A stretch of 64,000 nt of DNA from Caldifarciminota bacterium (lineage in GTDB: Bacteria; Hydrothermota; Tepidihabitantia; Tepidihabitantales; Tepidihabitantaceae). The position numbers and the translations under genes were made by a program. The DNA is taken from positions 1 through 64,000 of the forward strand of contig JAOABP010000004.1 of NCBI GenBank assembly GCA_026418295.1, written 5' to 3'. The notes beneath the pieces are model-generated. The model saw nothing but the letters and a program-made list of their open reading frames with translations. It did not search any database and was not told where the DNA came from. This document shows positions 2,893 through 7,333 of the stretch, in pieces (within the stretch, counting starts at the first letter, position 1; each line of letters begins with the position of its first letter).

Positions 2893-4383
2893 TTATTTCT
2901 GATACTGCTTCTCGCCGAAAACCTCTCCGGTAAATACATAGAGTTCGGCATTTTTATCCCGGTAGGCATCAGGGGGCAATCCTGCCTTGCGACAGGTCCA
3001 TTCAAGAAACTGTTTTCTATCCCACCCCTGTTCCACCGGCACCTGCGGCAGCAGCAGTCCGGAATAAAAACCCCTTCTGATCACCAGCCCGTGGCTGCCC
3101 ACTATTACCGACTCGGGATCGTAAATCCGCTGTAATGGTGAAAGTACTGTAATTTCTATATCAATATCCTTCAGCTCCTCCGGCCGGACGGGCGGAAACC
3201 GCGGATCCTCAGTTGCTGCACTGATCGCCATATCCCTGGTCGCCAGATAAAGCGGTTTGACCGGTTCCACATAGCCGATACAGCCCCGAAGTTCGCCCTG
3301 CTTGTGCAGGGTAACAAATACTCCGCGCTTCTCCTTTAATCGCTCGCTTACCGGTGTAAATTCCGGAATTCTGCCATACCGGACATATTCCTCAATTGTC
3401 CGGCGGGCAATCTCAAGCAGATTTTTTTTCTCTTCACGGCTCAACGCCGTGTCGGCATTCGATTCCGCTGCTGAACCTCCCGCATCCTGAACAAACGCAA
3501 CCGCACTGTAACCGACACAATAACCACCACGCTCACCGAGCACATCGCTGGAATTGGTCTGATGCAGAAGAACCGCCCGGCTGGCACCAAGCTCCCGGGC
3601 CGCGATCATCAGTGTCACAATCGGAAATCCCCCGCAGGCTAACGGCTTCTGATCCTGATAGGATCGCACCAGTGCCGCATAGAAACTCCGGGGATCCAGC
3701 TTCAGCATCAGCTCAACAGTCAGCGAATCGGTCGCCTTTGCCTCAGAATAGGAATACCCGTGATAGAGGTCAGAGGAGGCAAGCAGCAACACATCTTTAC
3801 CCCTGACTGCCCGGGCAATACCCTTCCCCGCAGCCTCGCACTGTTCATAGGTCGGAAAAAGCAGCATGATCGGCACAATCCTGAAATTTTTCAGCACTCG
3901 CTGGAGAAACGGCAGCTGGACTTCAAGCGAATGCTCCTGAGCATGGACCGCCGGCAGTTCAGCAAAATATTGATCCTGTCTGATAATTGATTTTGCCAGC
4001 CCCTCATCAACCTCCACCATACCCAGGGGCGTCTCCCATTTTCCACTTGCGTAGACAGCGGCACGGTCAAAATCGGCGCGATGGCTCGTGCCCAGCATCA
4101 CCACCGTCACCGAATCCATGCCGGCAAGCAGCTTGAAGGCATGGGCAGCAGTCAGTCCGGAATAGTCTATCCCGGCATGGGGCACCTGAATTCCGATTAT
4201 CCGGCCCGCAGGGGCTGGCGGATTTGCCTGCCCCAGCAGACGGTCAATCTTCCCTGCCAGCTGCTGGGGATCGGCCGGATAAAACTGTCCCGCAACTGCT
4301 GATTTACGCACCATCCTGTCCTCCTTCGGCGCTGCACATAGAACAGCGAGCAGCACCAGCCATATGGTTATCAAACGGTTCAT
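2893..4383 (-). CDS. MEMO (AmmeMemoRadiSam protein B)-AMMECR1 (protein A) fusion protein
   Basis: N-terminal half MVRKSAVAGQFYPADP...VPHAGIDYSG...LGTSH...SSDLYHGY is MEMO-like; C-terminal half RGVFVTLHKQGELRGCIGYVEP...AATEDPRFPPVRPEEL is AMMECR1. Start is ATG 4383, or an internal ATG preceded by SD at about 4314. Confidence 0.9.
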   Translation of the reverse strand: MNRLITIWLVLLAVLCAAPKEDRMVRKSAVAGQFYPADPQQLAGKIDRLLGQANPPAPAGRIIGIQVPHAGIDYSGLTAAHAFKLLAGMDSVTVVMLGTSHRADFDRAAVYASGKWETPLGMVEVDEGLAKSIIRQDQYFAELPAVHAQEHSLEVQLPFLQRVLKNFRIVPIMLLFPTYEQCEAAGKGIARAVRGKDVLLLASSDLYHGYSYSEAKATDSLTVELMLKLDPRSFYAALVRSYQDQKPLACGGFPIVTLMIAARELGASRAVLLHQTNSSDVLGERGGYCVGYSAVAFVQDAGGSAAESNADTALSREEKKNLLEIARRTIEEYVRYGRIPEFTPVSERLKEKRGVFVTLHKQGELRGCIGYVEPVKPLYLATRDMAISAATEDPRFPPVRPEELKDIDIEITVLSPLQRIYDPESVIVGSHGLVIRRGFYSGLLLPQVPVEQGWDRKQFLEWTCRKAGLPPDAYRDKNAELYVFTGEVFGEKQYQK

Positions 4384-4384
4384 T

Positions 4385-5338
4385 CTAATTTTCTGACCAT
4401 TTACCGCACCGGTCACCATAACGGTCTATCACTTCAGCACCACGGAGCGTCTCCACGACCTCGCACCGGTTCGGACAGCCGTCGCACTCAAACACCCGGG
4501 TTGCAAACTCGGTCCGAGCGACCTCAAATCCGGCAAAACGGCTCGCCTGACCGCGGGTTGCTTCAGCTGCAAGGATTGCAGCACCAATTGCCCCCATCAC
4601 GAGGAAATACTCGGGCACAGTAATTTCCTGCCCCAGTGCCCGCTCAAACGCTGCCCTGACCCCGACATTAGCTGCCACACCTCCCTGAAAGAGAATTCTG
4701 GGTCTGATCTCCTTCCCTTTGGCAACCGTATTAAGATAATTGCGCACAATCGCATCACACAGACCGGCAATAATGTCATCGGTCGGCACACCCAGCTGTG
4801 CCTTGTGAATCATGTCCGACTCGGCGAACACAGTGCACCGACCCGCGATACTCACCCGGTTTTTCGCCCGTAAAGCCCGGGCGCCGAACTCTTCAATCGG
4901 GATCTGGAGCCGGGCTGCCTGATGGTCAAGAAAACTGCCGGTGCCGGCAGCACAGACCGTATTCATGGCAAAATCAACCGGAATTCCATCCCGGAGAATG
5001 ATAATCTTGGAATCCTGTCCGCCAATCTCCAGCACCGTCTGGACATCCGGGTAATAAGTCCCTGCTGCCACCGCATGAGCGATGATCTCATTCTTGACTA
5101 TATCCGCCTGAATCATCACCCCGGCAAGCCTCCGTGCCGAACCGGTAGTCCCCGCACCCAGAATCCGCAACCGGGAATCAACTTCACTTCCCAGCTCCTT
5201 CAGAAGTTGGCGGATTGAACCGATCGGATTCCCCTGTGTGCGCAAGTACCGATAGGCAATCACCCGGTAGTCCCGGTCGATTACCACTCCTTTAGTGGAG
5301 ATGGAGCCGACATCAATTCCCAGAAACCCTTCGTGCAT
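4385..5338 (-). CDS. BadF/BadG/BcrA/BcrD-type ATPase (2-hydroxyacyl-CoA dehydratase activase-like)
   Basis: LGIDVGSISTKGVVID phosphate loop, NTVCAAGTGSFLDHQA, AGRCTVFAESDMIHKAQ, FQGGVAANVGV; extra C-terminal CDGCPNRCEV...RCG cysteine motif. Start placed at MHEGF (5338). Confidence 0.9.
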   Translation of the reverse strand: MHEGFLGIDVGSISTKGVVIDRDYRVIAYRYLRTQGNPIGSIRQLLKELGSEVDSRLRILGAGTTGSARRLAGVMIQADIVKNEIIAHAVAAGTYYPDVQTVLEIGGQDSKIIILRDGIPVDFAMNTVCAAGTGSFLDHQAARLQIPIEEFGARALRAKNRVSIAGRCTVFAESDMIHKAQLGVPTDDIIAGLCDAIVRNYLNTVAKGKEIRPRILFQGGVAANVGVRAAFERALGQEITVPEYFLVMGAIGAAILAAEATRGQASRFAGFEVARTEFATRVFECDGCPNRCEVVETLRGAEVIDRYGDRCGKWSEN

Positions 5339-6377
5339 ACTTCCGCCTCCGCAGCAGTTCCACAAACGCCTCCAGTCTTGTTACCAGGCCGGTGGTTGAG
5401 GTATGCTCATCAAACGAAAGATAAAGCAGCGGCACCCCGCTCTGCTCCGATATCCGCTGCAGTGCCTCAAGGGCGATATTCTCCGGCATGCAGGTAAACG
5501 GGAATACCTGCACAATTCCGTCCACGCCCTGCATCACAAACTGACGTGCCTCCCCCACGGTCCGGATCGCCTCACCGCCCGGACACTCGGCAAGATACGG
5601 CCTTGCCAGTCTTCTTGACCGGCGATACCCGGCATCGATATGCAACAGATACCGCAGATGGTTATAAAGACAGCGCTCAAAAACAACCTCGGCTCCGAGT
5701 CGTGCCAGTTCCTTCTCAATCTCCTGATTTGCCCGCTGATCCACGGTGTAAAAAATCTCGCCTACCAGCCCGATCCGGATATCTGCCCTTTTACCATTAA
5801 TGCCGAAAAGGCGCACCATTTCCCTTCTTGCCCGCTTCATCTCAGAAATTGTCCGCGCCCGGTCAATCAGACTCATAACCGGACCCTTTACCTGCTCCGC
5901 CCCGGCAAAATCAACCGCCCGCTTGCGATTGAGCAGGCGCCGGAAATCCCGGGTTAGAGCACTCTTTACCAGCAGCCGGCAGACCGCCCGCATCACGCGC
6001 AACGGTGAAACACCAAACAGCTCCGGTATCAGTTTGAATATGAACCCGGATGCCGAATACTGACTTACCGGCACCAGCCGGAAATCCTGTTTTATCTGCC
6101 GCAACGCCTGTTCCTGAAGAAAATGATAATAGCCGAACCGGCACTTGCGAGCACCGGCAGCCATCAGAAGGGTATCAGCACCCCGCTCCAGCGCCTCGGC
6201 GAAGTTGCCCAGAGTAATTTTGAACGGCATACACACCAGCTCCGGCGCCAGCTTCACACCGATTTCTACCGTCCTTTTGGAAGTCGGCGGTGGCAGCACC
6301 ACCTCGGCTCCGAGTTCCTCAATAAACCCCTTCAGCGCCAGGGTATCAAAGCCGAAGTGAGGAATCCCGACCTTCAT
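5313..6377 (-). CDS. Acyl-CoA dehydratase activase-related protein (DUF2229-like)
   Basis: MKVGIPHFGFDTLALKGFIEELGAEVVLPP, ELVCMPFKITLGNF, FPFTCMPENIALEAL, DEHTSTTGLVTRLEAFVELL. Confidence 0.8.
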   Translation of the reverse strand: MKVGIPHFGFDTLALKGFIEELGAEVVLPPPTSKRTVEIGVKLAPELVCMPFKITLGNFAEALERGADTLLMAAGARKCRFGYYHFLQEQALRQIKQDFRLVPVSQYSASGFIFKLIPELFGVSPLRVMRAVCRLLVKSALTRDFRRLLNRKRAVDFAGAEQVKGPVMSLIDRARTISEMKRARREMVRLFGINGKRADIRIGLVGEIFYTVDQRANQEIEKELARLGAEVVFERCLYNHLRYLLHIDAGYRRSRRLARPYLAECPGGEAIRTVGEARQFVMQGVDGIVQVFPFTCMPENIALEALQRISEQSGVPLLYLSFDEHTSTTGLVTRLEAFVELLRRRKYARRVSGN

Positions 6378-6384
6378 CAGACCT

Positions 6385-7299
6385 TCAGCATCCTGCCGCT
6401 ACCCCGGATCTGCTCAAACACCGCCGGTTCAGCAGCTCAACGAACGCCTCTACCCTGGTCACCAGACCGGCAATGCCGGTATGCTCATCAATGACCAGCA
6501 GGAGAAACGGCACTCCCTGCCTTTGTGCCCGGCTGCGCATGAACTCTGCAACCAGGGAATCAGGACCGCAGCCCATGGATACGACCATGCAGAACCCGTC
6601 AACCCGGCCCAGCAGGTATTCGAACGCATTATACAGCTCCCGCTCATAAACCCAGCGGATATTGTGAGCAAAACCGGACCGGTTCAGCAACACCCTTCCC
6701 GGCAGTGACTCTTTGGTTATGACTTCATAACCATTCTGCCGGAAGGTCCTGATAATTGCCCCGGCGATAAACTCATCGTTCAGATTGTAAAAATGGCCGA
6801 TCAGTGCTACGGTCCGCCTGCCGGCTGCCGGCAGGTTATCCTCATTTCTCCCCCGCTTTCCTCTTTCCGACCGGACCGCCCGACGCCACCCCTGCCATAC
6901 CCGAACCGGATTGGCACAGACTGCCAGCCCGGCAGTCAGATGTGCCCGGGTGAAGTTTCCCTTGATACTGGGAGCGATCAGACGCACCTTTTCCCCCAGA
7001 AGCATCCGGGCAACATCGACGATGCCGATCATCTTCGGACAGGCATAAAGTCCGTCATAAAGCCAGTCCAGACGGGGAAAGAAAATTGCATCAACACGCT
7101 CCTTCAGATAAAGGAGATGTCCGGCAACTATCTTGATTGGCAGACAAACCTCACCTGAAACACACTTCAGCCCCTGTTCCAGAATCACTTCATCGGTTTT
7201 GGGGCTGAGCACCACCTCCACCCCCAGGTTACGCAGATAATTTTCCCACAGCGAGCCGTAACGGTAATAAAGCAGTGCCCGAGGTATGCCGACTTTCAT
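6385..7299 (-). CDS. Acyl-CoA dehydratase activase-related protein (DUF2229-like), paralogue of the adjacent gene
   Basis: MKVGIPRALLYYRYGSLWENYLRNLGVEVVLSPKT, GEVCLPIKIVAGHLLYL, MGCGPDSLVAEF, DEHTGIAGLVTRVEAFVELL. ATG at 7299 preceded by TTGACT-N16-TAAAAT. Confidence 0.8.
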   Translation of the reverse strand: MKVGIPRALLYYRYGSLWENYLRNLGVEVVLSPKTDEVILEQGLKCVSGEVCLPIKIVAGHLLYLKERVDAIFFPRLDWLYDGLYACPKMIGIVDVARMLLGEKVRLIAPSIKGNFTRAHLTAGLAVCANPVRVWQGWRRAVRSERGKRGRNEDNLPAAGRRTVALIGHFYNLNDEFIAGAIIRTFRQNGYEVITKESLPGRVLLNRSGFAHNIRWVYERELYNAFEYLLGRVDGFCMVVSMGCGPDSLVAEFMRSRAQRQGVPFLLLVIDEHTGIAGLVTRVEAFVELLNRRCLSRSGVAAGC

Positions 7300-7305
7300 C
7301 AATTC

Positions 7306-7333
7306 ATTTTAATCCGGTTGACCATCAAGTCAA
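7306..7333 (-). promoter_or_regulatory. Predicted sigma70-type promoter, leaderless layout, for the 7299-2893 operon
   Basis: Minus strand TTGACT (7333-7328), 16-nt spacer, TAAAAT (7311-7306), 6 nt, ATG 7299. Confidence 0.6.

Follow-up and report, generated by a model that had tools for sequence, protein, structure and literature searches.

Conservation of MEMO and AMMECR1 extends from archaea to humans. In bacteria, both are found with a radical S-adenosylmethionine (SAM) enzyme in the AmmeMemoRadiSam set (AmrA/AmrB/AmrS; TIGR04335/04336/04337), for which we know of no established biochemical function. In the literature searched, this set was only mentioned in passing, and nothing was found on an exported AmrS or MEMO. 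Among the ATP-driven reductases of the HAD/BCR superfamily, class I benzoyl-CoA reductase has a [4Fe-4S] cluster with three Cys ligands in BzdO and an [8Fe-9S] cluster with six cysteine-ligated irons in BzdN (PMC11971306). Human MEMO1 binds iron or copper via two His and one Cys (PMC11081632), and in Salmonella in-frame alternative starts give N-terminal proteoforms, some of which may lose a signal or lipoprotein anchor (PMC11005335). Here, we analyzed a four-gene operon in which relatives of these systems stand together, and whose last gene, a MEMO–AMMECR1 fusion, appears to be read from two in-frame starts. It lies on the minus strand of the first 64,000 nucleotides of contig JAOABP010000004.1 (hereafter, the window) from a Caldifarciminota bacterium of candidate division WOR-3, to which the named relatives matched via the HGD-D-like protein of the operon also belong. 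The genome is 1.8 Mb long and 96.7% complete, and it was labelled G000 of family f1 in a phylum survey in which G numbers denote genomes and f numbers their families.

Our best explanation of the whole, to which we give a probability of about 0.6, is one operon with two modules and a dual-start MEMO–AMMECR1 gene. The order of the genes is DUF2229 protein (DUF; 6385..7299, 304 residues), HGD-D/DUF2229-like protein (HGD; 5313..6377, 354 residues), BadF/HgdC-type ATP-dependent activase (ACT; 4385..5338, 317 residues) and the fusion (2893..4383, 496 residues in its long form), with a 7-nucleotide gap, a 26-nucleotide overlap and a 1-nucleotide gap between them. An earlier note, made from the sequence, had described these four packed same-strand genes behind one promoter, and all of them were present where it placed them; the promoter corresponds to one promoter-like site directly upstream of the first gene (TTGACT-16-TAAAAT, 7306..7333, minus strand), which is a consensus match only, with 10 of 12 matches in the scan. 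The domain assignments were far over the cut-offs: PF09989 in DUF (E 7e-37), PF06050 and PF09989 in HGD, BcrAD_BadFG (E 1e-48), CoA_E_activ (E 1.7e-56) and TIGR00241 (191 bits, cut-off 125) in the activase, and Memo (E 1e-56), AMMECR1 (E 2e-60), TIGR04336 and TIGR04335 in the fusion. In the alignments, H69, H101 and the Cys of GGYCVGY in the MEMO domain (3505..4302) matched the MEMO1 ligands H49, H81 and C244, and the AMMECR1 domain (2917..3417, PF01871, residues 323-489) contained an invariant LRGCIG motif. An Rfam scan of the operon locus gave no match.

The coordinates of the fusion gene in the earlier note were right, but a second, strongly supported start at 4314 had been overlooked. Before the MEMO domain, the long form carries a signal/lipoprotein-like leader of 23 residues, MNRLITIWLVLLAVLCAAPKEDR (4315..4383), followed by M(V)RKSAVAGQFYP. 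The end of the leader contains the Shine–Dalgarno sequence AAGGAGG (4320..4326), and initiation at the internal ATG would generate a short form of 473 residues (2893..4314), predicted to be cytosolic. In the 18 f1 sequences, the AGGAG nucleotides were invariant while the encoded residues varied (KE, EE, QE), and the internal start codon alternated between ATG and GTG, being one or the other in all 18. Of the 65 distinct fusions read across the phylum, 60 had an in-frame hydrophobic signal-like leader, as against none of the four non-fused MEMO genes in that set; complete non-fused genes read later also had none. The last residue of such leaders was usually a Cys. The duplex energy of the internal Shine–Dalgarno site had a median of -11.1 kcal/mol (n=42) vs -1.8 for the remaining in-frame ATGs in these genes (n=319, p=3e-23). 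In families f9 and f10, AGGAG or GGGAG was found 9-10 nucleotides ahead of a conserved ATG in 11/11 genes, within a Gly-Val/Ala pair that always used GGA, and in other families the site fell in other codon phases. An exported-only MEMO in f9/f10 was ruled out by this conserved internal ATG, which has its own ribosome-binding site 10-12 codons upstream of the domain. The f9/f10 leaders varied as coding DNA does, most at third, then first, then second codon positions, and of 263 background genes with a comparable Shine–Dalgarno start only 8 (3%) had such a leader, two of them signal-bearing AmrS. The possibility that the hydrophobic leader is an artefact of a wrongly called start was discarded on its conservation, codon pattern and background rate. 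These comparisons make it highly probable that the fusion gene is read from two in-frame starts.

The relatives also showed the two putative products as separate genes. Of the 56 genomes in which one signal-bearing MEMO gene was read, 54 have it as a single-copy, dual-start gene, and in the remaining two (G020 and G134) the gene read is one of two copies; these classes, like the exported-only and cytosolic-only ones, were assigned by automatic classification, and the table is incomplete because the search pattern missed second copies in G019, G020, G133, G134 and G137. Two copies were read in nine genomes, and eight of these had one exported-only and one cytosolic-only gene; the ninth (G144) had an exported-only and a dual-start gene. 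Within family f32, one dual-start gene was found in G131 and two copies each in G133 and G134, the copies read being signal-less in G133 and exported-only in G134. Among the exported-only duplicates were genes with canonical lipoboxes and no internal start, and the cytosolic-only copies had the same Shine–Dalgarno site at their true start. Only cytosolic forms were found in f18, in f19 and in the families whose MEMO and AMMECR1 genes are separate.

The third member of the set, AmrS (TIGR04337), which the earlier note proposed to look for elsewhere in the genome, was present as two paralogues, at C15:22729-23733 (371 bits, cut-off 220) and C12:64307-65278. In the phylum, one type, AmrS1, had Sec-type leaders or twin-arginine (Tat) SRRxFLK motifs (SRRNFLKK and similar) and no conserved internal start, and the other, AmrS2, began at the domain, with no signal, and in several genomes followed the gene of ApbE, a flavin transferase. 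In 20 genomes from cytosolic-only MEMO families, only signal-less AmrS was found among the genes read. We see an even chance that the MEMO–AMMECR1 system occupies two compartments. The fuller proposal is held more tentatively, at somewhat under even odds: in WOR-3, AmmeMemoRadiSam would operate in the cytosol with AmrS2 and outside it with a Sec/Tat-exported AmrS1, both being supplied by one gene with an internal start conserved phylum-wide or, where duplicated, by separate exported-only and cytosolic-only genes.

Some neighbors of the AmrS genes were recorded as well. A DUF362/double-ferredoxin protein (L122:8714-9781, own genome C15) was directly downstream of AmrS1, the pair being kept in f1, f3 and f5 (L123, L133, L135), and it is a candidate electron donor or partner. 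AmrS2 shared an operon with the gene of ApbE and with genes for small proteins, membrane or NusG_II-like (L128:8301-11464; L124, L134, L136), which hints at a link with extracytosolic flavinylation. In G103, the genes of a HAD phosphatase, ApbE and AmrS2 came after a DUF/HGD pair. A 1,400-residue fused DUF2229-activase protein was encoded two genes upstream of AmrS1 in G132 and G133, and in family f32 such a fused protein, a potassium-channel regulator-like open reading frame and AmrS1 stood in a row (L137:4222-10425, L138:5362-11400).

Regarding the first three genes, the AlphaFold models of DUF (pLDDT 88) and HGD (pLDDT 86) both matched catalytic-component subunits of DCCP, HadBC (2-hydroxyisocaproyl-CoA dehydratase) and BzdN/class I benzoyl-CoA reductases, with Foldseek E values of 1e-6 to 1e-8 against HadBC, DCCP and BzdN and 7yyl, 6eno and 8s02 as the closest solved folds. 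HGD had three invariant Cys (C49, C79 and C296), the last one aligned with a Cys of DCCP and HadBC, and DUF had four in an alignment of 16 relatives (Cys 52, 87, 237 and 244). Since BzdN has six, single cubanes are expected and a double cubane is unsupported; a double-cubane cluster in HGD or DUF was rejected on this count. Therefore, the description of the trio in the earlier note as a BadF-type activase with two dehydratase-like proteins stood as to fold and families, but its reading of the latter as double-cubane proteins did not. In the activase, C129 and C168 aligned with the cluster cysteines of HgdC within CAAGTG and CTVFAES (alignment to HgdC 1hux and HadI 4eht), and an extra C-terminal CxxCxxxC...C motif (C285/C288/C292/C311) was invariant in 12 relatives. 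No CoA-pathway genes were found among the four operon genes, and the trio proteins had no export signal. The fold, the Cys sets and the HgdC-type activase suggest that the trio is an ATP-driven reductase belonging to the HAD/BCR superfamily. A second HGD/DUF2229 pair, with no activase, adjoins a QueD-like gene in the same genome (C11:136716-138367; L142:8312-10377), and this paralogous set is widespread in the order.

The neighborhood survey suggested in the earlier note showed that the four-gene block is kept in 15/18 f1 genomes (G000, G105 and G107-G119), in a few of which a contig end removes part of the trio. The flanking genes on both sides varied among groups of f1 genomes with the block intact, indicating that the four genes are retained as a unit and that their linkage is not due to chance. 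Outside f1, the trio and the fusion were both common and usually separate, as in the sister families f2 and f3: the fusion was found phylum-wide without the trio, the trio stood alone in further WOR-3 families, as does its split counterpart in Clostridia. In G073 (f10), a DUF–HGD–ACT trio was directly upstream of the fusion; in G092 it was 3 kb upstream, and in G102 (f4) five genes on the same strand separated the activase from MEMO. The IQ-TREE phylogeny placed the G073 trio in a fully supported HGD clade different from that of the f1 trio, and thus the trio–MEMO adjacency arose at least twice. A universal coupling of both modules was ruled out, as the linkage is limited to f1 and G073.

Other explanations of the start pair were weighed against this background. 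If only the short cytosolic form were made, the upstream hydrophobic stretch would be untranslated or a decayed signal, and the strong internal Shine–Dalgarno site, next to a weak or absent one at the outer start, is what such a gene would show. However, the stretch is open and hydrophobic in the 60 of 65 fusions, across a deep phylum; in f9/f10 its variation follows the coding pattern, in f1 its last residue is an invariant Cys, and stretches of this kind are rarely seen (3%) ahead of other Shine–Dalgarno starts. Some duplicates, moreover, are exported-only, with a canonical lipobox and without the internal start, so that we regard this explanation as very improbable. Conversely, a Shine–Dalgarno-like pause that helps membrane targeting is a published idea for membrane proteins, and the AGGAG could be such a pause in a gene making only the long exported form, as it lies about 20 codons into the gene, right past the hydrophobic segment. 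That would hardly account for an ATG or GTG at start-codon distance from the site in 18/18 f1 genes, for exported-only duplicates that lack the site while cytosolic-only copies have it at their true start, or for AmrS1, which has signals but no conserved internal start; we consider it improbable, though a little less so than the short form alone.

The bond between the two modules can also be read in more than one way. The earlier note proposed that MEMO/AMMECR1 directly modifies or partners the activase-dependent reductase, and the persistence of the block through rearrangements, the adjacency found twice in different trio clades, AmrS2 beside DUF/HGD in G103 and AmrS1 two genes past the 1,400-residue fused activase protein in G132/G133 would all agree with it. 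This proposal was weakened by the two parts being commonly apart in the phylum, with the trio alone in Clostridia and other families, the fusion phylum-wide without it and both separated in three f1 genomes, and also by the export signal on one MEMO form; it now seems unlikely. At the other extreme, the linkage might have arisen by chance in the gene order of one family, the genes being transcribed together but functionally unrelated, as suggested by the separation of the modules in f2, f3 and the three f1 genomes, but this sits poorly with a block kept in several different flanking contexts and an adjacency that recurs in G073. We take such an accident as a possibility of some weight, short of even odds, and we hold equally tentatively that the trio–MEMO coupling is functional and not merely regulatory, to which the conserved linkage points.

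Several observations weigh against the two-module, dual-start explanation. The leader-final Cys, although kept in 18/18 f1 sequences, is often preceded by Leu, Phe or Val, an atypical lipobox; the outer start mostly has no Shine–Dalgarno site; and the criteria for calling a leader were hydropathy, the position of the Cys and the codon pattern. The pairing of forms breaks in G130, which has a dual-start fusion and a single, signal-less AmrS match, and G141 may be similar. Moreover, the trio and the fusion are apart in the f1 genomes G104, G106 and G120, their linkage is confined to f1 and G073, with a looser form in G092 and G102, and members of one family do not count as independent cases. As to the lipobox, WOR-3 ApbE proteins (L134:1634-2554, L136:9362-10285) have 'LFLFC'-like lipobox positions, suggesting that the lipobox is relaxed in this phylum.

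Under the two-module explanation, DUF, HGD and ACT would perform cytosolic ATP-driven low-potential electron transfer and have the architecture of a class I benzoyl-CoA reductase or a 2-hydroxyacyl-CoA dehydratase. ATP would be hydrolyzed by an activase dimer whose subunits are bridged by a [4Fe-4S] cluster, and electrons would thereby be driven into a DUF/HGD pair with single [4Fe-4S] clusters. The second module would be one gene giving a MEMO–AMMECR1 metalloprotein in two forms. The upstream start, which lies one base past the stop codon of the activase gene and is probably coupled to it in translation, would yield the exported, probably lipid-anchored form, which would pair with the signal-bearing AmrS1; the internal start, served by a strong ribosome-binding site of its own, would yield the cytosolic form, a putative partner of AmrS2. 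As to its chemistry, AmmeMemoRadiSam may modify a small molecule or a protein by a radical or metal-based route. The common promoter would tie the amounts of the MEMO–AMMECR1 forms to that of the trio, the probable reason being that both modules take part in anaerobic low-potential chemistry within one cell. Only the cytosolic MEMO–AMMECR1 could meet the trio.

If MEMO–AMMECR1 indeed acts in both compartments, the range of substrates and electron donors to be searched becomes much narrower, and the dual start would make this long-standing orphan family, shared with humans, mutationally testable. A radical-SAM protein acting outside the cytoplasm would, to our knowledge, be without precedent, and for an AmrS1 bearing such signals one has to ask by what route SAM and low-potential electrons would arrive; one candidate cytosolic source of these electrons is the activase trio. 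All the parts belong to known families. As far as the literature searched shows, what is new is the conserved dual start, the two-compartment AmmeMemoRadiSam arrangement proposed from it, and the operon with a split DUF2229-activase trio.

When compared with the described systems, the trio shares with 2-hydroxyacyl-CoA dehydratases (HadBC/HadI; HgdAB/HgdC) the subunit fold, the three-/four-Cys pattern and both activase cluster cysteines, but identity is only ~12-16%, the subunits are shorter (~300-350 residues vs ~375-430), the activase has the additional C-terminal Cys motif and no acyl-CoA genes adjoin. BzdNO class I benzoyl-CoA reductase and DCCP with its reductase are the closest solved folds found by Foldseek, whereas the conserved Cys here are too few for [8Fe-9S]. 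The DUF2229 activase-related proteins, known as ~1,400-residue fused proteins and split trios, have the same domains, and the Clostridia split trio has the same gene order; in contrast to them, MEMO–AMMECR1 follows in the same operon here. Of the human MEMO1 ligands, the His pair is invariant here, and the Cys is retained in f1, f3 and f5, though some relatives lack it; the fusion to AMMECR1 and the predicted export form set the protein apart. The principle of the start pair is that of the Salmonella proteoforms, which were found in one species by ribosome profiling, whereas the pair described here, known from sequence, has been conserved in a large part of the phylum, some members having two separate genes instead. 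Outside the phylum, where export was sampled via plasmids only, a fused MEMO–AMMECR1 with a hydrophobic signal-like N-terminus was found beside a signal-less AmrS on a plasmid of Segatella hominis (NZ_CP137560.1; L274:3992-6409), with no internal Shine–Dalgarno site seen, and a plasmid fusion of Ideonella dechloratans had no leader; the former provides a related signal-bearing fusion in a culturable gut bacterium. Finally, the fusion is a clear member of AmmeMemoRadiSam (TIGR04336, 242 bits, cut-off 26; TIGR04335, 192 bits, cut-off 99) in a genome that has AmrS, and it differs from the described set by the joining of A and B in one protein, by the export leader and the internal start, and by the apparent co-transcription with an activase trio, while AmrS is duplicated into signal-bearing and signal-less paralogues.

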